24,425 nt of DNA, taken from a virus. Positions 4,122 to 19,954 of this stretch are shown here, piece after piece. The position numbers and the translations under genes were made by a program. Within the stretch, counting starts at the first letter, position 1. Each line of letters starts with the position of its first letter. The notes beneath the pieces are model-generated. The model did not search any database and was not told the DNA's origin. It saw only the letters and a list, made by a program, of their open reading frames with translations. The stretch spans positions 1 to 24,425 of the IMG/VR virus record IMGVR_UViG_3300020185_000254. One strand, written 5' to 3'.

Positions 4122-5879
4122 GTGGAGTTCGCTACCGACAAGGACAACAACCGCTTTCGATGGGATGGTAACGACTGGGTTAAAGCCGAGTTTGCCTATG
4201 ACCAAAACAACAATGAGTTTGCTTGGGATGGCGCCGATTGGGCGCAGGTAAATACTGAGGCTCAAGACTTTGCTGACGAGAAGTATGGGCAGCAACAGCC
4301 CTCAGCCCCTTTGGATGGTCAAGAGCAAAATCGGTTTGGTGATTTCGTAGATCAGACCCAAGCAGCATTCGCAGAAAGCTTCGGTGCTGATGCAGCTGCT
4401 GCCCGAATCTTGACTGGCAGTGAAACTGCGGGTGCTATTGAAGACTCCCTTTACGAGTATGGTGAAGAGCAAAGGTCGACTTTAAGCTCTAACGCCAGAG
4501 AAGCTCAGGGCAAGACATGGCTCAGCGAAAACGAGGGCGAGACCTTCGGTGATGCATGGGGCGATGTTGATAGCTGGATTTCACTTGGAGCGTCCGGCGC
4601 AGGATCTCTAGGCTCGTTGATCGCTGGTGGTGGCGTAATTAAAGCAGCTGCCAGTATTGGTCTTCGTGGCCTTGGTAAGACCATCGTTAAAAACAGCGCG
4701 ACAGACAAGCGCGTCAACATGGGTATCTACGGAACACTCGAGGCAGGAATGGTCGGTGGTTCCGCAGGCCGTGCTGTTGAGGAAGAAATCCTCCGCATGC
4801 CTAATGAAATTCTCGTGGAATCCGAAGGATTTCAGGATGTATTCCAAGAGCTGATCGAAGAAGGCTATTCAGAGTCAGAGGCGGCAGACCAAGGTAAAAA
4901 GATATTCGCAAGAAGCACTGCTCAGATGGCAGTTGTCGGAGGCGGAGCAGCAGGTTTAGTTCTTGGCACAGTAGCTGGTAAGTATCTTGATGATGCGATC
5001 TCTGGGCGTATGGCTGGAGGAATGGCCGGGCTTCCTAAGAACGTAGCACTACAGACCGGAGTTCAAGGGGGTACTGAAGCAGCCCAAGGCGGCAGTCAGA
5101 AGTTTGTAGAAAACTTCGGTGTTCAGCAGGCTGACTCAAGCCAAGAACTTTCAGAAGGTGTAGCCGAAGCTGCGGTAGCAGAGGGTCTTGCTGGCGGAAT
5201 GATGGGCGCACCTGTGGGTGCAATTGGATCTCTTAGTTCACCGGTCGATTTGACTCAGACTCCTGACACGGATCCATTCTCGGATGTCGAGATTCCTGAT
5301 GTTGGGCTAGTGGTAGATGAATTCGGCAACCCAGTGGAGCCAGAGGGTTTGCTACCTGCGCCAGAAGTAGAGCCCGAACAGGTAGAACCAGACTTCGTTG
5401 TCACGCCTAGTGGCATGGCAGCAGAGAGCCAAGCGGATATTGACCAAGGTCAAGAGCGCATGAGAGCAGAGGCCGAGTCAGAAGTGCCTCTCATTGAGAC
5501 AACTTATCAGCCAGATCCTGACATGGTGGTTAACAGTCAGGGCGAGGCAATGACGCCTGACCAGCAGACTCAGGTCGACCTTGGCTTTAGGCCTAACCAG
5601 CTGGCTATTGAAAACAAGAACGTAATCTACGGCGAGGGACCAGTACGTGATCCCGCACGCAATGATGCTCTCGAGGAAGAGTTTCCTCAAGGATACAACG
5701 TCGACACCTATGAAGGTGATGCTGAGTTCAAGGCGCTGAAAGACATCAACATCAAGCAGCAGTTCCAAATTGAGGACTCCGGCGAGGTAGTTGAGGTCAG
5801 TGAGAGGGCGGATCGATTGTTTAGTAAAATCGACAAGCGCAGAGGTGTACTGACCAAACTTCTGGAGTGCGTAGGCTAA
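4122..5879 (+). CDS. large internal virion / ejection protein with WDGxDW repeats and glycine-rich hydrophobic segments
   Basis: A 585-residue protein starting with GTG six bases after the previous stop; no ATG fits because the first repeat begins at residue 2. Residues 2-22 and 23-43 are tandem 21-residue repeats, each with W-D-G-x-D-W (13-19 and 34-40). Hydrophobic Gly/Ala segments lie near 153-181, 268-287 and 352-372 and could be membrane-inserting helices. A GVQGGTEAAQGGSQ motif near 312-325 resembles a helix common in large phage injection proteins. Residues 380-500 are acidic and Pro-rich. The protein ends with LFSKIDKRR, similar to the LFSR sites in the 2105-residue protein. This suggests it acts with that protein in a DNA-ejection channel, as gp15 and gp16 do in T7 (inference). 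Its TAA overlaps the next ATG. Confidence 0.55.
   Translation: MEFATDKDNNRFRWDGNDWVKAEFAYDQNNNEFAWDGADWAQVNTEAQDFADEKYGQQQPSAPLDGQEQNRFGDFVDQTQAAFAESFGADAAAARILTGSETAGAIEDSLYEYGEEQRSTLSSNAREAQGKTWLSENEGETFGDAWGDVDSWISLGASGAGSLGSLIAGGGVIKAAASIGLRGLGKTIVKNSATDKRVNMGIYGTLEAGMVGGSAGRAVEEEILRMPNEILVESEGFQDVFQELIEEGYSESEAADQGKKIFARSTAQMAVVGGGAAGLVLGTVAGKYLDDAISGRMAGGMAGLPKNVALQTGVQGGTEAAQGGSQKFVENFGVQQADSSQELSEGVAEAAVAEGLAGGMMGAPVGAIGSLSSPVDLTQTPDTDPFSDVEIPDVGLVVDEFGNPVEPEGLLPAPEVEPEQVEPDFVVTPSGMAAESQADIDQGQERMRAEAESEVPLIETTYQPDPDMVVNSQGEAMTPDQQTQVDLGFRPNQLAIENKNVIYGEGPVRDPARNDALEEEFPQGYNVDTYEGDAEFKALKDINIKQQFQIEDSGEVVEVSERADRLFSKIDKRRGVLTKLLECVG
4125..4250 (+). repeat. two tandem 63-base repeats encoding WDGxDW units
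   Basis: Bases 4125-4187 and 4188-4250 encode aligned 21-residue units sharing F-A-x-D-x-x-N-N-x-F-x-W-D-G-x-D-W. The protein similarity is clear while the DNA has diverged. Confidence 0.7.
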
Positions 5880-12243: not shown

Positions 12244-12466
12244 ACATTTTGGCGCTCGTCATTTCAGAGCAAACACCTTTAAAACAATTACCCACTTTCG
12301 GGTCGAGGTCGAGCTACGCGACAAGACCGGCGGCACTCGCAAGAAGTGGGTTGAGTTCGAGGCTGAACGCTACAACGAGGAGATGCAACTTCTCTATGAG
12401 CAGGCTCGGAGAGATGAAGAAGAGATTATTGCTGTGATTGTTACAGCCATGGAGATCATACAGTGA
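12233..12466 (+). CDS. small conserved phage structural-region protein
   Basis: A 77-residue protein beginning MALKHFGARHFRANTF, a start that recurs in short phage proteins encoded directly after the preceding family. The rest is charged and helical (RDEEEIIAVIVTAMEIIQ at the end). Its ATG lies inside the end of the previous gene and its TGA overlaps the GTG of the giant gene (GTGA). Role unknown; position suggests a virion or assembly factor made in fixed ratio with its neighbours. Confidence 0.65.
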   Translation: MALKHFGARHFRANTFKTITHFRVEVELRDKTGGTRKKWVEFEAERYNEEMQLLYEQARRDEEEIIAVIVTAMEIIQ

Positions 12467-15400
12467 GTTTAACTGCTTGTATTAAGAAGGCCGCTAAAGC
12501 TATTAGTCCACAGGACGGTGCATATCTAACTCAGGTGCGTGCCGAGTTAATGCAGGAAGGCATGACCGCGATAGAAGCGGATCGTGCAGCTGTCCAGACA
12601 TTGATGGACGGCACCATGCAGGAACTTCAAGAGCTATCTCGTATGGTTGAGGAGCAAGGTGGAAAGCCTCTTTATGAAGAGATGACGCAGGCGGCACTGA
12701 GCAGAGTCACAGACCGCACGCCAGAGCTTCAGGAAGCCGCACAAGGGGTCACTGAAGGAACGGTAAATCAAGAGCAATACGCTGAGACGGTCGATCGATT
12801 CAAGCCCGTACAGGCCTATGAGAGCGTTCCTGAGCCAGAGGCTGATGAGGCAGCAGTAGCCGCACTCACAGAAGACAAGCGAGAGCGTTTTGGTGCGGCC
12901 AGAGAAGTAGAAGACGGCACCCCAGTAGCAGTGAGATTAGACATCCCAGCATACCGTGACAACGGCACATGGGTTGTATCGATACACGAGCAGAAAGAAG
13001 GTCAGGGCCAGAGCTCATTTCAAGCTGGTAAGTCAATTGGCTATGACAGCACGGCAGTCATCGATAATGTTGAATTCGGTATGCCTCAGAAAGGCGCACT
13101 GAATATCGCCAAGGGTAAGCCCAAAGGGACTATCGCAACGATGAAAGGGACATGGAGAAATGTTCCTGCGGCTGCAGCCAAAGAAATGGCAGATGCTGCG
13201 ATGGCTAGTGGCGATTATGTGCAGGTCGGAATGGACCCAGAGCGGCACAGTTTCTTCTATGACCGTGGTGATCACCGTGTGCCTGTGTTGAGCGCAGATG
13301 AAGTCATTCAGGTAGGCCCATTAGTTCTGGCTAAGAATCCCACCTACGGCAAGAAAGAAGATTTCCTATTTAGTCGGACTGGTAAGCCTGCCCTTGACCC
13401 GGTGCAGCTCAATGCGGTCGTCGAGAGGATCACCCCCGGGCGGAACATAGATAATCCCGAGTCCCCGGTTGTCGTCGTCGACACCTTTAACGATCTTCCG
13501 CAGGCGATCAAAGATGTAGCGATCGCACAAGGTGCGCAGCGTGCTGATGGTACGTCTGAAGTTGATGGCGCTTTTCATAATGGGAAAGTGTATCTCGTGC
13601 GCGAAGAGATCGCGAGCGAAGAACAGGCTGAAACTGTACTACTGCACGAAACTACGCACGGCGGCATGATGGAAATGCTGCGCGATCAAGGTATCAAGCA
13701 GGCAGCAAACGAATTATTCGTAGCCATGGGTGGTTCCAAAGGCTTCAACAAGATCGCCGCAGAGATGGGCATCGAGGAAAAGCTCAAGCCATACCGCGAA
13801 GGATCAGAAGGCATGACCCAAGAGGATCGTCAGTTCCTTATGGTGTCAGAGATGCTCGCCTACATCGGCGAGAAAGGATCTAAGGGGCTCAAGCTTAAAG
13901 CTCAGGAGCTCATCGGTCGCATCAAACAGTGGCTACGTGATCGTGGGTTCGCGACTCTGGCTGAAAAGGATGCGACTGACATTGCCTATATGGCACGCAA
14001 GTCACGAGAGATCGGTCTAGGACAAGGCCCAGCCACACTGTTCTCGAGAAAGAGAGAGAAGCAGCTGGGTGAATACTCTGCCCGTCAAGATGCTAATGGC
14101 GGACTGTTTGTCAGTGGTGACGTTGAGAGCATTCGATCCAAGCTCCCCGATGGATTGCGCGGTCGACCTGTCGAAGGCGGTCTGCAGTTCACGCCAAACA
14201 ACGCCCCCAGAGTTGAGGCTGCACTGAGCGGTGAAAGATTCTCTGGCAGGTCGGGTGAAGTTACAAAGAACGAGATGAAGAACGGCAGGTACGTCGGAGC
14301 TCCACCTCAGTACAACACGCCAGCCAAACTCCCGGCATTCAGAAAGCGATTCAAGATGCTGGCTGATGAAGGCACCCGGGGACGTTTCTGGTACGAGAAC
14401 TCAGGTGAAGCCATCCTGCAGATGACCGGCGGTAACGTCGAAGAGGCCAAGAAGTTTGTAGCCTTGCTCGCCATCTTCTCACCCCAAGCCAAGGTGGACG
14501 CTAACTCTACCTTCGCGCTGCGAGCATGGGCCCAGTATCAGGCCGGGAAGCCCATCGAAGTTAAGCAAGACAACATGAACCAGAAGGCTACCGAGCTTCT
14601 CTATGAGAACAAGCCTTGGAATGGGGAGAAGACTAGTAACTTCTTCCAGAATCTTTTGCGAGAGATCGAGCCCAGTACCGAAGGTAAGCAAGGCGCAACC
14701 ATCGATCTATGGATGATGCGTGCTGGAGGCTTCAAGACAGACGCGCCAAACGGATCGCAGTATGCATTCCTCGAGAACGAGACTAACCGACTGGCACAGG
14801 AATTAGGCTGGGAGCCTCAGCAGGTGCAGGCTGCAATCTGGGTAGCAATGAAAGCCCGGATGGAAAACAAAGGCGTTAAGCAGCGCACTGAAGCAAGGTC
14901 TGAGAAAGACGGCTACCTTCACTACACCTACGAGCCTAAGAAGACGCGGCATGTAACTTCGCCTGATGAGCATATGCAGAATTGGATCGACGAGGCGATG
15001 AAGCACACGCCTACTGAGGCGGATACTAGTGCTGCCAAGTTCGATTACGGGGATGGCGTGCGTCGTCACCTTGGACAGATCTCATGGGAGGCGACTCCTT
15101 CTACGAAGATCGACGTTCTACCGGGCATCCATGACGCAAGCTACGAAGACAAGCTCGACTTCCAGTATGCCGTACAGAACGTGCTCTACGATGAGAACGG
15201 CACGGATAAGCTTGCCATGCAGCTGGGGCTGCTTGTAAATACCAATGACACCGTGGTCCCCGGCTACTGGGAAGGCATCAGTAATCCATCGAACCAGACC
15301 GAAGTAGCTATGGTTCCTGCTAAAGGCAGTGTTACGGGTACTGATCAAGCCCAGAAAGACAATCTGGATGTCTACGCTGCAGCAATAGGTCTCATGCTCA

Positions 15401-18400
15401 ATCAAGATGGTGTCGGATATCACCGCCCGTTTTACAAGGCAGCTAAGAAAGACAGTCACGGGATTGAGCTTGATGTTGGCGGACCACTTACTGGCGATCA
15501 GGTTACCGCTCTAGGCAAGGGCATTGAGGCGGTCTTCGGAGATCTCGCTGGCGCTATCGGTATTATTAGTACGCCAAATGGTGTGCGTTTGGTAGATTTT
15601 AGTGAGATGGGCTATAAAAAGTTCGGTCCTCTCATCCAGCAAGTGGTAGAATCAGAGACAGATTTGACGGCTGAGTTAGTACACTTTGCGTTTGACGGTG
15701 ACTTAGTCGAGAACAATTGGGAGGATAGTGCCGATGGGCAAGATTACATCAACAAGATTCGCGACAAAGGACGATCCGATATACTCGGGTTCATCGCAGC
15801 TGAGTTTTCACAACCGCTCCAAGAAGTCTTCAACCGATACTCAGAAGAGTTCGGATGGGGCGAGCCCGGAGATGTCCAAGAAAGACTCGAGCAAGCCAGC
15901 AACGAAGCAGGATATGTAACCCCTCTCTTCTCTCGCAGGCGTGAATCCACATTCACAGTACCTGAAGAGAAATTCGCGGATAGGTTTATCCGCAACCTAC
16001 AAGATAAATTCCTACAAGTTCAGCGCGTTCAGCGAGCAATCGAAAAAGCCACGGGCCGCAAGCTAGAGAAAGACTCTGACCCTTATCTGGTAGAGCAGTT
16101 CTTCACTGGCAAAGCTGAGGAAGATCTCGCCGCGGCAGAGCGCAAATTCATTCAGCCAATGATGGACAAGCTCGGTCAGTACGGCCTGAACATGAATGAG
16201 TTGGATCTATTCCTGATGGCTCGTCATGCGCCCGAGCGTAACGCAACCATTGCAGAGCGCAGAACACCCAAGGCTACAGATCAGGAGCCTAATCCAGAAT
16301 CTGAAATGCCGGACGGCGGTTCAGGAATGACCAATCAGCAGGCAGCTGACTGGATGGCGACGTTTGATCGCGAAGGAAAGTTGCAGCAGCTCGAAGAGGT
16401 GGCTAAGTACATCGACATGATGGTGGTTGAGCAACGTCGCATCATGACAGATCTTGATTTGATCAATGAGGCTCAGGCGTACCAGCTCGAAAACAACTGG
16501 CAGTACTACGTTCCACTCAAGGGCTTCGCTGAAGACTCTGAGTCCGATAACTCTACGCTGCACCAAAAGCGCGGCAAGGGTTTTGATATCCGGGGCAAGG
16601 AATACAAGTCTGCGACGGGCCGTAACAGTATGCCGGAAAGTCCTACAGCCGTGCTGCTAGCAGACCTCACTGAGAAGATCATACGATCCAGAAAGAATGA
16701 GGTAGGTCAGGCCTTCCTCAAGATGGTTCAAGACAATCCCAACCCGGACATCTACGAGATTCTGGAGCCGGGGGACTTGCCCAAAGGTTATGACGGCACG
16801 CTTGATAAAGATGGCAAGGCGAAGATGTCTGCTATCAACCCGGCTATGGACCCCTCAGTATTAGCCGTAAAGCAAAAAGGCGGCGAGACTAAGTACATTA
16901 AGATTCACGACAAGCTGCTTGCATCTGCTATGAAGAACATGGGGCCGCAAGAGATGGGCACGGTAACCGGCTTAGTCAATACAGCTACCCGGTTCCTCTC
17001 TGCAGCTAACACTTCTTTCTCCCCCGAGTTCCCACCCGTTAACTTTGTTCGAGATATCACCACGGCAATCATGAGTGTCTTGGCTGAGACCGATTTGAAG
17101 GACGGCAAGATTAAGGACATGGAAGGCGTTGCCGCGAAGATGGCTAAGGGTGCTTTGTTCCGAGTTAGAGATATCAACAACTACTATGAAAGCGTCAAGG
17201 CTGATCCCAATTACAAGCCCGAAGGTATTGAGGCAGACTTTGCTGAGTTCCTAGAGATGGGTGCTAAGACTGGATACTTTGACAGCAAGGATATCAACCA
17301 GCTCAAGGGCGACCTCGAGAGCATGCTCACCATGGCAGGCAACACCAACAAGGGTGCCTTCCTAAGAGCTAAGAAGAAAGTGTTCGATAAGGTCGAGCAA
17401 TGGAATACCGCGGTAGAGAATGGTGTTCGTTTGTCTGCGTATATCCATGCCCGGGATGCTGTATACCAAGCATCGATTGAGTCAGGTGTCGCGCCTGAGA
17501 AGGCAATGAAGGATGCCAAGCTAACAGCTGCTGACTTAGCCAAGAACCTAACCGTTAACTTCAACCGTAAGGGTGAGTATGGTCAGGCCATAAACGCTTG
17601 GTACATGTTTGCCAACGCCAGTATTCAAGGCAGCTTCAACTTGCTGCGTGCTGTATCTCCACTACGACGCGATGCCGAAGGCGACTTCAAGCTAGATCCC
17701 AAGATGAACACGGCCCAGAAGGTAGCCGCGGGAATGGTGGGCACTGGCTACTTCTTTGCCGCGATGAATCGTGAGCACGGCGGTGAGGATGAGGATGGCG
17801 TACCGTACATCGACAAGATCTCTCGTCACGTTAGAGAGCGGAACCTTATCTTGCTCGACAGTGTGTGGGGCGGTGACGGCGAGAAGTACACAGCTTTGCC
17901 TCTGCCATACGGCTTCAATATATTCTTCAATCTCGGCGACACGCTGGAAGCTGGCAAAAACTCAACGTACTTACCAAGACGACAGTCACTGGTAGGCCAG
18001 ATGGTCATCGGGTCACTGAACTCATTCAGTCCGTTTGGTGTTCCTGCAGGCGAAGATGCCCTTACCGGAACAGCTCTAACCCTCACGCCATCAGTGTTGA
18101 AGCCAATCGCTGAGATTGCTGCGAACCAAAGCGAGTTCAATGGTGGTCCGATCTACCCAGAGCAACGTGGCTATGGCGCTCAGCCGGTCGAGGCTTATCA
18201 GTCATTCCGCTCCACCAAAGAAGTGTACAAGAACCTTTCCATGTTCATGAACGACTTCACTGGCGGCAGTAAGTATGAAGAGGGTGGTATCAGTATCGCC
18301 CCTGACAAGATCGAACACGTCGTTGAATACGCGATGGGTGGTATGTATCGAACCGGGTCAAGGCTTCTCGAGACTGTCGATGCGCTTGGAGATGGCCGAC

Positions 18401-18780
18401 AGCTGTCAACCAACAACATTCCATACCTCAGATCATTTGCCGGAGAGAACAGATTCTACGAAGACCAGTCTCTTTTTTATGACCGATTAGAAGACATAGA
18501 TAATGCGGTTGCGGCCATCAAGGATAGAGAAAGCACTCCGGCAGAGAGGGGTGCGGCTCGAAAGGAAAACATGTGGAAGATAAAGCTTGCTAACAGGGCC
18601 AAGGGCGCTAGGAAGCGAATGAAGTTCCACCGTGATGCAAGGGATCGAATTGTCGCCAATACAGAGATCACAGACGCGGAGAAGGATGTTCGAATTAAGG
18701 AAGCGGAGGCCAAGATGAAGGCGGCTACGGATGAGTTTAATAAGGCTTACAACGAAGCCGAAAACAAAGCTGAGGGATAG
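12463..18780 (+). CDS. giant polyvalent internal virion / ejection protein with HExxH peptidase module
   Basis: A 2105-residue protein from a GTG that overlaps the previous stop. Four blocks are separated by LFSR at 302-305, 526-529 and 1155-1158. Block 1 has a domain at 155-300 (RLDIPAYRDNGTWVVSIHEQ; FFYDR; ADEVIQVGPLVLAKNP) like domains of phage polyvalent proteins; LPD3- or ADP-ribosyltransferase-like labels are possible but unproven. Block 2 has H395-E-T-T-H399 and a candidate third zinc ligand at E463 (SEMLAY). Block 3 (530-1155) contains RFWYENSGEAI near 640 and GATIDLWMMRAGG near 746; function unknown. Block 4 resembles LPD38-type C-terminal regions of polyvalent proteins (RFIRNLQDKFLQVQRVQRAI; VNFNRKGEYGQAINAWYMF near 1695) and ends in charged coiled coil. 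I infer a gp16-like protein ejected into the host, with enzymatic cargo. Confidence 0.75.
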   Translation: MSLTACIKKAAKAISPQDGAYLTQVRAELMQEGMTAIEADRAAVQTLMDGTMQELQELSRMVEEQGGKPLYEEMTQAALSRVTDRTPELQEAAQGVTEGTVNQEQYAETVDRFKPVQAYESVPEPEADEAAVAALTEDKRERFGAAREVEDGTPVAVRLDIPAYRDNGTWVVSIHEQKEGQGQSSFQAGKSIGYDSTAVIDNVEFGMPQKGALNIAKGKPKGTIATMKGTWRNVPAAAAKEMADAAMASGDYVQVGMDPERHSFFYDRGDHRVPVLSADEVIQVGPLVLAKNPTYGKKEDFLFSRTGKPALDPVQLNAVVERITPGRNIDNPESPVVVVDTFNDLPQAIKDVAIAQGAQRADGTSEVDGAFHNGKVYLVREEIASEEQAETVLLHETTHGGMMEMLRDQGIKQAANELFVAMGGSKGFNKIAAEMGIEEKLKPYREGSEGMTQEDRQFLMVSEMLAYIGEKGSKGLKLKAQELIGRIKQWLRDRGFATLAEKDATDIAYMARKSREIGLGQGPATLFSRKREKQLGEYSARQDANGGLFVSGDVESIRSKLPDGLRGRPVEGGLQFTPNNAPRVEAALSGERFSGRSGEVTKNEMKNGRYVGAPPQYNTPAKLPAFRKRFKMLADEGTRGRFWYENSGEAILQMTGGNVEEAKKFVALLAIFSPQAKVDANSTFALRAWAQYQAGKPIEVKQDNMNQKATELLYENKPWNGEKTSNFFQNLLREIEPSTEGKQGATIDLWMMRAGGFKTDAPNGSQYAFLENETNRLAQELGWEPQQVQAAIWVAMKARMENKGVKQRTEARSEKDGYLHYTYEPKKTRHVTSPDEHMQNWIDEAMKHTPTEADTSAAKFDYGDGVRRHLGQISWEATPSTKIDVLPGIHDASYEDKLDFQYAVQNVLYDENGTDKLAMQLGLLVNTNDTVVPGYWEGISNPSNQTEVAMVPAKGSVTGTDQAQKDNLDVYAAAIGLMLNQDGVGYHRPFYKAAKKDSHGIELDVGGPLTGDQVTALGKGIEAVFGDLAGAIGIISTPNGVRLVDFSEMGYKKFGPLIQQVVESETDLTAELVHFAFDGDLVENNWEDSADGQDYINKIRDKGRSDILGFIAAEFSQPLQEVFNRYSEEFGWGEPGDVQERLEQASNEAGYVTPLFSRRRESTFTVPEEKFADRFIRNLQDKFLQVQRVQRAIEKATGRKLEKDSDPYLVEQFFTGKAEEDLAAAERKFIQPMMDKLGQYGLNMNELDLFLMARHAPERNATIAERRTPKATDQEPNPESEMPDGGSGMTNQQAADWMATFDREGKLQQLEEVAKYIDMMVVEQRRIMTDLDLINEAQAYQLENNWQYYVPLKGFAEDSESDNSTLHQKRGKGFDIRGKEYKSATGRNSMPESPTAVLLADLTEKIIRSRKNEVGQAFLKMVQDNPNPDIYEILEPGDLPKGYDGTLDKDGKAKMSAINPAMDPSVLAVKQKGGETKYIKIHDKLLASAMKNMGPQEMGTVTGLVNTATRFLSAANTSFSPEFPPVNFVRDITTAIMSVLAETDLKDGKIKDMEGVAAKMAKGALFRVRDINNYYESVKADPNYKPEGIEADFAEFLEMGAKTGYFDSKDINQLKGDLESMLTMAGNTNKGAFLRAKKKVFDKVEQWNTAVENGVRLSAYIHARDAVYQASIESGVAPEKAMKDAKLTAADLAKNLTVNFNRKGEYGQAINAWYMFANASIQGSFNLLRAVSPLRRDAEGDFKLDPKMNTAQKVAAGMVGTGYFFAAMNREHGGEDEDGVPYIDKISRHVRERNLILLDSVWGGDGEKYTALPLPYGFNIFFNLGDTLEAGKNSTYLPRRQSLVGQMVIGSLNSFSPFGVPAGEDALTGTALTLTPSVLKPIAEIAANQSEFNGGPIYPEQRGYGAQPVEAYQSFRSTKEVYKNLSMFMNDFTGGSKYEEGGISIAPDKIEHVVEYAMGGMYRTGSRLLETVDALGDGRQLSTNNIPYLRSFAGENRFYEDQSLFYDRLEDIDNAVAAIKDRESTPAERGAARKENMWKIKLANRAKGARKRMKFHRDARDRIVANTEITDAEKDVRIKEAEAKMKAATDEFNKAYNEAENKAEG

Positions 18781-18781
18781 C

Positions 18782-19954
18782 ATGGAGCACCTATTAGAGT
18801 TTGCCACGGAACGGCAAAAGGAAGTAATAAAACTAGTCATAGAGATGGGCAGTGCTCGACGTGCTGCTGAAGCTTTAGGAATACACCACAGCACTGTGGG
18901 TGAGATGATAAATCGCGCCAAGTCCAAGGCAGCAATAAGCGGTGTTGCGCCAGAAGCGGGTATGACCCATCAAACTGCGGAAGGCTTTGCTACTAAGCGC
19001 GTCAGCACCATGTACAAAGATGACGGTTCGGTAGGCCTCCAGTGGCATATACAAGAGCAAGATAAAAAGCAGCAGATGGAAGCGATCACTCGTTTTTGTG
19101 AGTCGTTTAAGTGGAAGCCAGCGCCCAAGATTAAGCACAAGGGTGCTGAGAAAGCTGAGCTATGCACGCTGTACACGCTTACCGATTATCACATGGGTAT
19201 GTATGCCTTCCGAGATATCGGCGGTGATGATTGGGACAGCAAGATAGCGACCAACACAGCCATTACAGCATTGGCTCAGATGATTGATGGGTCACCGGAC
19301 TCAGCCATAGGGATACTGAATCTCCAAGGCGATTTTTTGCATTACGACTCCCTAGAACCAGTAACTCCGACTTCCGGCCATATCGTCGATTCTGATTCAA
19401 GAATGGAAGCACTGGTCGACGTTTCAGTGCACCTGATCATGCACTGCATAGAGATGCTGTTAGAGAAGCACAAGGATCTGAAGATCTTTATCTGCGAGGG
19501 TAACCACGATATCGTCTCGAGCCTATTCCTGCGCAAGTTGGTCAAGCATGTCTACATGGATAACAAGCGTGTCAGTGTGGACGACACGTCATTCCCGTAC
19601 TATGCGTATCAGCACGGCAGGGTCATGCTGGGATTCCACCACGGTCACAAGAAGAAAAACACCGCCTTACCAGCGCTGTTCGCCAGTGAGCCAAGGTATC
19701 GTCAGATGTGGGGCTCTTGTACTGCTGGCACGTATATCCACACAGGTCACTATCACCATCAAGAAAAAGATGTCCACGAAGATGGCGGTGCCGTTGTGGA
19801 GCGTCATCCAACACTCGCTGCACGCGACAGCCATGCCGCTCGCGGTGGCTACACGAGCCTAAGAGCAGCGCACGCTATAACGTACCACAAGGAAAAGGGT
19901 GAGGTGTCTAGGTGTACGGTTACACCCAGCGCATCCCAAGAAGCCGCAGCCTAA
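18782..19954 (+). CDS. HTH + calcineurin-like metallophosphoesterase
   Basis: A 390-residue protein from the ATG at 18782, preceded by GAGGG. An in-frame ATG at 18731 lies inside the previous gene and has no such site. Residues 10-45 form a helix-turn-helix (SARRAAEALGIHHSTVGEMI). The rest carries the full calcineurin-like phosphoesterase motif set: D135-x-H137, G-D184, G-N241-H242-D243, H287-G-H289 and G-H323-x-H325, which bind two metal ions and hydrolyse phosphate esters or DNA/RNA phosphodiesters. The combination of DNA-binding head and phosphoesterase suggests action on DNA. Such genes occur near the virion and packaging genes of several phages, but the substrate is unknown. It is the last rightward gene and overlaps the convergent zinc protein gene by 35 bases. 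Confidence 0.85.
   Translation: MEHLLEFATERQKEVIKLVIEMGSARRAAEALGIHHSTVGEMINRAKSKAAISGVAPEAGMTHQTAEGFATKRVSTMYKDDGSVGLQWHIQEQDKKQQMEAITRFCESFKWKPAPKIKHKGAEKAELCTLYTLTDYHMGMYAFRDIGGDDWDSKIATNTAITALAQMIDGSPDSAIGILNLQGDFLHYDSLEPVTPTSGHIVDSDSRMEALVDVSVHLIMHCIEMLLEKHKDLKIFICEGNHDIVSSLFLRKLVKHVYMDNKRVSVDDTSFPYYAYQHGRVMLGFHHGHKKKNTALPALFASEPRYRQMWGSCTAGTYIHTGHYHHQEKDVHEDGGAVVERHPTLAARDSHAARGGYTSLRAAHAITYHKEKGEVSRCTVTPSASQEAAA

Follow-up and report, generated by a model that had tools for sequence, protein, structure and literature searches.

The IMG/VR virus record IMGVR_UViG_3300020185_000254 comprises 24,425 bases, which are referred to here in their entirety as the window. A giant open reading frame (ORF) in the window encodes a polyvalent protein of 2105 residues, and we examined the domains of this protein and in particular a block at residues 530 to 1155, the core of which is predicted to be a DNA glycosylase. 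The existence of the ORF, its polyvalent-type architecture and the residues H395-E396-T-T-H399 and E463 had been proposed in an original prediction made from the sequence. The ORF was real and had the proposed position and length (Table 1), and the numbering of the motif residues was correct. A polyvalent protein combines several domains of disparate activity, including an LPD domain or a zincin, in one polypeptide, and zincin, DUF7178/HhH-GPD and LPD38 domains were found together in this product. The proposed architecture was supported by the structural result for the zincin, by the Pfam match to LPD38 and by a published survey of such proteins (PMC5512222). This class of proteins is already known; what is new is the predicted DNA glycosylase within a virion-type protein.

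Residues 530 to 1155 form a recurring mobile module

An alignment scan detected 211 relatives of the block in viral contigs and three in bacterial genomes, namely a Burkholderiales metagenome-assembled genome (MAG), a Gallionellaceae MAG and Halomonas sp. NO4. The alignments began at approximately residue 529 or residue 600 and mostly finished between residues 1132 and 1155, in proteins of up to 3606 amino acids (aa) and at variable positions along the chain. The block is thus one recurring mobile module. Three scanned relatives also bore LPD38, inorganic pyrophosphatase (InPase), ART-PolyVal and Zeta_toxin domains, with weak matches to MuF_C and RelA/SpoT. Two families without known function, Pfam DUF7178 (E 3e-13) and phrog_3842, were matched by residues 635 to 798. 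There was no match in NCBIfam or PADLOC, and no mention of DUF7178 was found in the papers searched. The block had been put forward as unassigned and as something undescribed. The first description held for function but not for family membership, given the two existing families; the second held in part, as approximately 280 residues, at 865 to 1140, carried no functional assignment, and approximately 200 of the 620 residues are placed below in the HhH-GPD DNA glycosylase superfamily.

In one contig (L059:5830-7899) the module was split across three ORFs, which suggests decay, use of another genetic code or an error in sequencing. The relative on the Halomonas sp. NO4 contig (L026:1501-12318), in a prophage-like element, was a 3606-aa protein with InPase, ART-PolyVal, DUF7178 and LPD38 domains; IMG/VR apparently also contains this contig, at a length of 57 kb (L052), and it could provide a cultured test system.

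The DUF7178 core resembles OGG-type DNA glycosylases

An AlphaFold2 (AF2) model of residues 528 to 1155, produced with 50 homologs, had a pLDDT of 92.2 and a pTM of 0.84. When the model was compared by VIA with the Protein Data Bank (PDB), the top match was the 8-oxoguanine DNA glycosylase (OGG) of T. maritima (3n0u; Z 7.8, 169 aa, 3.8 Å). OGG entries occupied ranks 1, 2 and 4 with alignments of 166 to 172 aa, the other two being from M. jannaschii (3knt and 3fhf; Z 7.5 and 7.3), and the archaeal 8-oxoguanine glycosylase (AGOG) of P. aerophilum was also listed (1xqp; Z 6.7). All of these matches spanned model positions 93 to 334, corresponding to residues 620 to 861. The agreement with the HhH-GPD fold was moderate when taken alone.

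As Z scores of less than 8 can reflect a common arrangement, a second test was made with sequence profiles. A DUF7178 profile of 50 polyvalent and 5 solo sequences was compared with an Ogg-HhH profile (PF22175) of proteins from Pseudomonadota genomes, and the two matched with a probability of 91.1 (P 1e-6, score 51.9). Shuffling of the Ogg columns 300 times resulted in a mean score of 13.8 (standard deviation 2.5, maximum 26.8), the reversed profile scored 12.4, and controls with the zincin and with the extension scored less than 19. The solo DUF7178 proteins of actinophages, when compared alone with Ogg-HhH, matched with a probability of 89.3. An accepted pair, Ogg and Nth, served as the positive control and produced similar values (probability 91.7, P 7.8e-7), indicating that DUF7178 is about as distant from Ogg as Nth is. 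On the basis of the model and the profile comparison, we consider it highly probable that the DUF7178 core has the fold and active site of an HhH-GPD (OGG-type) glycosylase/AP lyase.

Predicted active site and comparison with known enzymes

Bifunctional HhH-GPD enzymes have a lysine in the hairpin region and a later aspartate, which in MjaOgg are the catalytic residues Lys129 and Asp147 (PMC5069365). K723 and D748 of the giant protein, at a spacing of 25, aligned with this pair. In MjaOGG2, Trp198 stacks on the oxidized base, and Asp194 corresponds in structure to Gln315 of hOGG1, a residue that bonds to the base (PMC3397491); W793 was found at the position of this pocket tryptophan. K723, D748, Q789 and W793 were invariant in 72/72 distinct module sequences, in 5/5 solo proteins and in 55/55 sequences of the core alignment. 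Only 15 core columns were conserved in at least 54 of the 55 sequences, and these included F727 and Y767 in addition to the four residues above. F727 might stack on the base like His133 of MjaOgg, with the profile alignment having a one-residue gap at this point. The pocket residues suggest that the substrate of the predicted glycosylase is an oxidized purine.

The likeness to the OGG2/Ogg-HhH family (PF22175; MjaOgg, SsoOgg and TmaOgg) extended to the fold, the lysine and aspartate in register, the pocket tryptophan and the Y-x-x-x-E and A-I-W helices. The differences were a very low identity, a wider lysine-aspartate spacing (18 in Ogg), a glutamine in place of Asp194, and the setting of the core, which is embedded in a phage protein of 2105 aa and accompanied by an extension of 320 aa. 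A long lysine-aspartate linker is also present in AGOG (PMC3397491), which shares the HhH-GPD fold, as judged by structure, but is an archaeal, stand-alone enzyme. Clear homology (hhalign probability 99.0) was detected with solo DUF7178 proteins of actinophages (PF23802), such as gp173 of Gordonia phage PhinkBoden, in which the lysine, aspartate, glutamine and tryptophan are kept. These proteins differ in being approximately 200 aa long, in having neither the extension nor LPD38 and in being encoded in a region of small genes and not by a virion gene. The depositors of PhinkBoden had already annotated gp173 as a glycosylase. A "portal protein" of Tunturiibacter phage Tunturi_3 (L157:3647-4243) was also a solo DUF7178 protein with all four residues, and its annotation is probably wrong.

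In the extension that follows the core, residues 863 to 1077 resembled tandem ferredoxin-like folds, with generic structural matches only, and are best modeled as a generic arrangement of this type. An RND efflux pump was considered for these residues (Z about 7) and rejected, as such pumps are proteins of the membrane and the remainder of their fold was missing. E876 was invariant in the extension (72/72), H987 was present in 67/72 sequences and D915 was near-invariant.

Table 1. Features of the giant ORF and its product, with window coordinates
Feature	Residues	Coordinates	Strand	Basis
Giant polyvalent-type protein	1-2105	12463..18780	+	2105 aa, GTG start
Conserved unit with motifs RLDIPAY / RHSxFYDR / ADEVIQVGPLVLAKN	82-317	12706..13413	+	36-56% identity in relatives
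Zincin-like metallopeptidase domain	320-525	13420..14037	+	AF2, VIA, alignment A6
H395-E396-T-T-H399 motif, inside helix 386-406	395-399	13645..13659	+	Sequence and AF2 model
E463, predicted third metal ligand, inside helix 453-471	463	13849..13851	+	Invariant in A6; AF2 model
Small alpha/beta N-terminal piece of the module	533-600	14059..14262	+	Missing from many relatives (similarity from ~600)
DUF7178 core, predicted HhH-GPD (OGG-type) DNA glycosylase/AP lyase	624-830	14332..14952	+	AF2, VIA, profile comparison
K723, predicted Schiff-base lysine	723	14629..14631	+	Aligns with Ogg GxGxK lysine (Lys129 in MjaOgg)
D748, predicted catalytic aspartate	748	14704..14706	+	Aligns with Asp147 in MjaOgg
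Q789-A-A-I-W793, predicted base pocket	789-793	14827..14841	+	Aligns with Ogg D-x-x-I-W
Extension beside the core in polyvalent relatives	831-1150	14953..15912	+	AF2 model, alignments
C-terminal region	1154-2098	15922..18756	+	phrog_616 E 3e-193; 128 phage records
LPD38 domain (PF18857)	1784-1988	17812..18426	+	Pfam E 3e-31

A predicted zincin domain precedes the module

The HExxH motif occurred once in the giant protein, compared to 0.02 occurrences expected from composition. An AF2 model of the surrounding domain (pLDDT 80.1, pTM 0.73) contained the HETTH helix, a later helix with E463 and a small beta-sheet of three strands, which are the structural features of polyvalent zincins (MPTase). 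In the VIA comparison, rows 1 to 7 consisted entirely of zincins and domains with the zincin fold (anthrax toxin factors, PPEP-1 and MATCAP; Z 6.6 to 4.8), with YbeY and ArdC further down; the scores were modest, and no non-zincin ranked above these seven rows. The peptidase proposal had been made dependent on H395 and H399 lying on the active helix of a zincin, which is where the model placed them. Foldseek detected no significant match for the zincin model. The sole match in a search of solved structures with alignment A4 was at the level of chance (de novo NTF2, E 0.44).

Searches for related loci with zincin alignments A2 and A3 added nothing new; a degenerate DNA motif scan succeeded instead and retrieved phage proteins with the motif LHETVGHxG. 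In alignment A6 the L-H-E, the second histidine and E463 were all invariant. Both HExxH and HExxxH have been described in polyvalent zincins (Iyer et al. 2017, PMC5512222), and the domain shares with these enzymes such a motif and a glutamate on a second helix, and belongs to the same motif family as the phage proteins of loci L108-L129. These observations led us to model residues 320 to 525 as a zincin of the family typical of polyvalent proteins. All aligned relatives had HExxGH, whereas the motif of the source protein is HExxH, a one-residue deletion in the active-site helix that produces the classical spacing.

The C-terminal half is related to a protein detected in virions

The LPD38-like region that had been recognized near the C terminus was correctly identified and lies within a 945-aa stretch, residues 1154 to 2098, that 933W-type, Vibrio and Bcep22-like podophages share in their own giant proteins. 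Identity over this stretch was 34 to 37% for the Vibrio and 933W-type podophages and approximately 25% for the Bcep22-like Burkholderia podophages (JC1, DC1 and BcepMigl). The giant virion proteins of these groups, including JC1 gp69 and DC1 gp67, differ from the source protein in having other N-terminal cargo, and the DUF7178 module was not found in them by tblastn. The C-terminal query was homologous to JC1 gp69 over 97% of its length (E 2e-42), and mass spectrometry of CsCl-purified JC1 virions has detected gp69 with 51 unique peptides and a score second only to that of the major capsid protein (PMC9144972). The giant ORF is the final large gene in the structural module of the source phage, and the homologs of Vibrio phage 1.205.O and DC1 occupy this position as well. 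A very large capsid-packaged protein that is believed to enter the cell, DarB of phage P1, is a precedent (PMC9024508). Because of the homology to a virion-detected protein, the shared gene position and this precedent, the giant protein is likely to be carried in the virion. It had been proposed as a virion and ejection protein; carriage is backed by the homology to JC1 gp69, and ejection into the cell is a step that we infer.

Proposed role and alternative explanations

The explanation that we prefer, with a probability of roughly 0.6, is that of a virion-carried polyvalent protein with a self-processing zincin and a glycosylase that repairs incoming phage DNA. The giant protein would enter the cell together with the phage DNA, where the zincin would, as its most likely role, cut the polypeptide into working parts, self-processing being favored by the published argument for polyvalent zincins (PMC5512222). 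The glycosylase would then act on DNA inside the cell, with K723 forming a Schiff base, D748 being catalytic and Q789 and W793 holding the flipped base. Its job would most likely be to clear the incoming phage genome of oxidized purines of the 8-oxoguanine class, a repair on arrival; this particular role is put forward tentatively. Slightly short of even odds, the virion may deliver a ready-made glycosylase, for repair before the first round of replication or for a base-directed attack, with the extension and its E876 and H987 being a second, undescribed domain that cooperates with it.

Several results weigh against this interpretation. The Nth and MutY profiles gave no direct signal with DUF7178, Pfam PF00730 did not match the core, and Foldseek found no significant PDB match (Tga-AGOG at rank 28, E 2.5). 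All VIA Z scores were below 8, unrelated RND pumps reached 7.3 on another part of the model, and the Ogg family was picked for the profile test after the structural result. The C-terminal lysine of OGG2, which is strictly conserved, reads 8-oxoG and sets the specificity for it (PMC3397491), is absent, the domain being internal and having no C-terminal carboxylate; for this reason the core is placed in the HhH-GPD superfamily as a divergent member and not in OGG2. Virion carriage, ejection, processing and activity of the source phage's protein are all predictions, and the host presumably possesses its own oxidized-purine repair. The modest Z scores and the lack of Foldseek and Pfam HhH-GPD matches could indicate a chance likeness of helical bundles, with DUF7178 being an unrelated fold, but this is very improbable given that structure and profile comparison agreed on one subfamily with the catalytic residues in register and that no shuffled profile approached the real score. 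The embedding of the module in a virion-type protein could also point to a noncatalytic HhH fold that binds DNA as a tethering or packaging part, with the extension as a structural or DNA-binding partner. Such a function is quite improbable, as K723 and D748, which serve chemistry and not folding, were invariant across the diverse module sequences and the solo proteins, and the solo genes of actinophages sit among small genes without known function.

The main alternative for the glycosylase is that of an injected weapon, which would remove a damaged or modified base from the DNA of the host or of a rival phage and thereby break the chromosome, release nucleotides or inactivate a modification-based defense. 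Effector carriage has been argued for the class of proteins in which the module sits (PMC5512222), the module occurs alongside ART, Zeta_toxin and InPase domains, and a reversal of the bacterial use of glycosylases against modified phage DNA (Brig1, PMC11078745; Brig3, PMC13160076) is conceivable. Nevertheless, Brig1 and Brig3 are both members of the uracil-DNA-glycosylase superfamily and not of HhH-GPD, the pocket residues resemble those of 8-oxoG readers, and PADLOC had no match, so that a weapon is rather unlikely. A similar question concerns the zincin, which had been viewed as an injected effector; the prediction of a zincin was upheld, but its injection as an effector would be at odds with the published preference for self-processing. 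A host-directed protease has been published as possible for certain polyvalent zincins (PMC5512222), and the metal site is predicted to be intact. In a count of the motif only, however, hHExx(x)H was present amid varying cargo in 74 of the 92 module-bearing ORFs with an uncut N-terminal end. This recurrence, the status of zincins as the commonest polyvalent-protein domain and the processing of P1 DdrB as a precedent (PMC5512222) make a shared processing role the better explanation and a host-directed protease unlikely.

Of the polyvalent proteins, 131 domains are listed in the published survey, and a glycosylase is unmentioned in its main text (PMC5512222); in the papers searched, no report was found of a DNA glycosylase in polyvalent proteins or of a phage-encoded 8-oxoguanine glycosylase in virions. 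With the present assignment, DUF7178 gains a testable function and active site, and base excision would be one more activity that phages may bring into the cell along with their DNA. If this is true, virion-borne DNA repair or base-directed weapons could be examined directly with purified protein or an inducible prophage.

Genome setting and N-terminal unit

An identical giant protein was encoded on a 35,290-base IMG/VR contig that extends downstream. The additional part contained a helicase, a primase, an endolysin-family match and a small terminase (phrog_51, E 5.5e-34); a large terminase and a head-tail adaptor were matched less strongly. The genes upstream of the giant ORF were co-oriented with it and included members of the virion families phrog_1645 and phrog_8003; a portal family was matched weakly. 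An exonuclease-like protein and a tyrosine integrase were encoded downstream, and the minus strand after the giant ORF encoded a single-stranded DNA-binding protein, a RecE-like exonuclease and an Erf-like annealing protein. The source virus is a tailed phage, podovirus-like and probably temperate.

A 585-aa ORF on the plus strand at 4122-5879 resembled the inner portions of giant phage proteins, with matches to phrog_10089 (E 2e-21), phrog_938, phrog_2206 (N4-type virion RNA polymerase) and positions 274 to 424 of phrog_616. The match of the giant ORF is to the C-terminal end of phrog_616, and what is one large protein in the relatives may be divided between two genes in this phage. The plus-strand ORF at 18731-19954 shared 50 bases with the end of the giant gene, matched phrog_704, "DNA repair exonuclease" (8e-103), and had a weak helix-turn-helix at its N terminus.

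The RLDIPAY...ADEVIQVGPLVLAKNP stretch to which the original prediction had drawn attention belongs to the conserved unit at residues 82 to 317. This unit was present in other phage proteins (loci L005-L015, L044, L070, L072, L083, L088 and L092, and podovirus MW202701) and had weak matches to phrog_586 (0.0027) and Pfam L5_gp82 (0.0086). In podovirus MW202701 (L023:7551-10535) the unit was part of a 994-aa protein encoded two small genes downstream of the portal gene.

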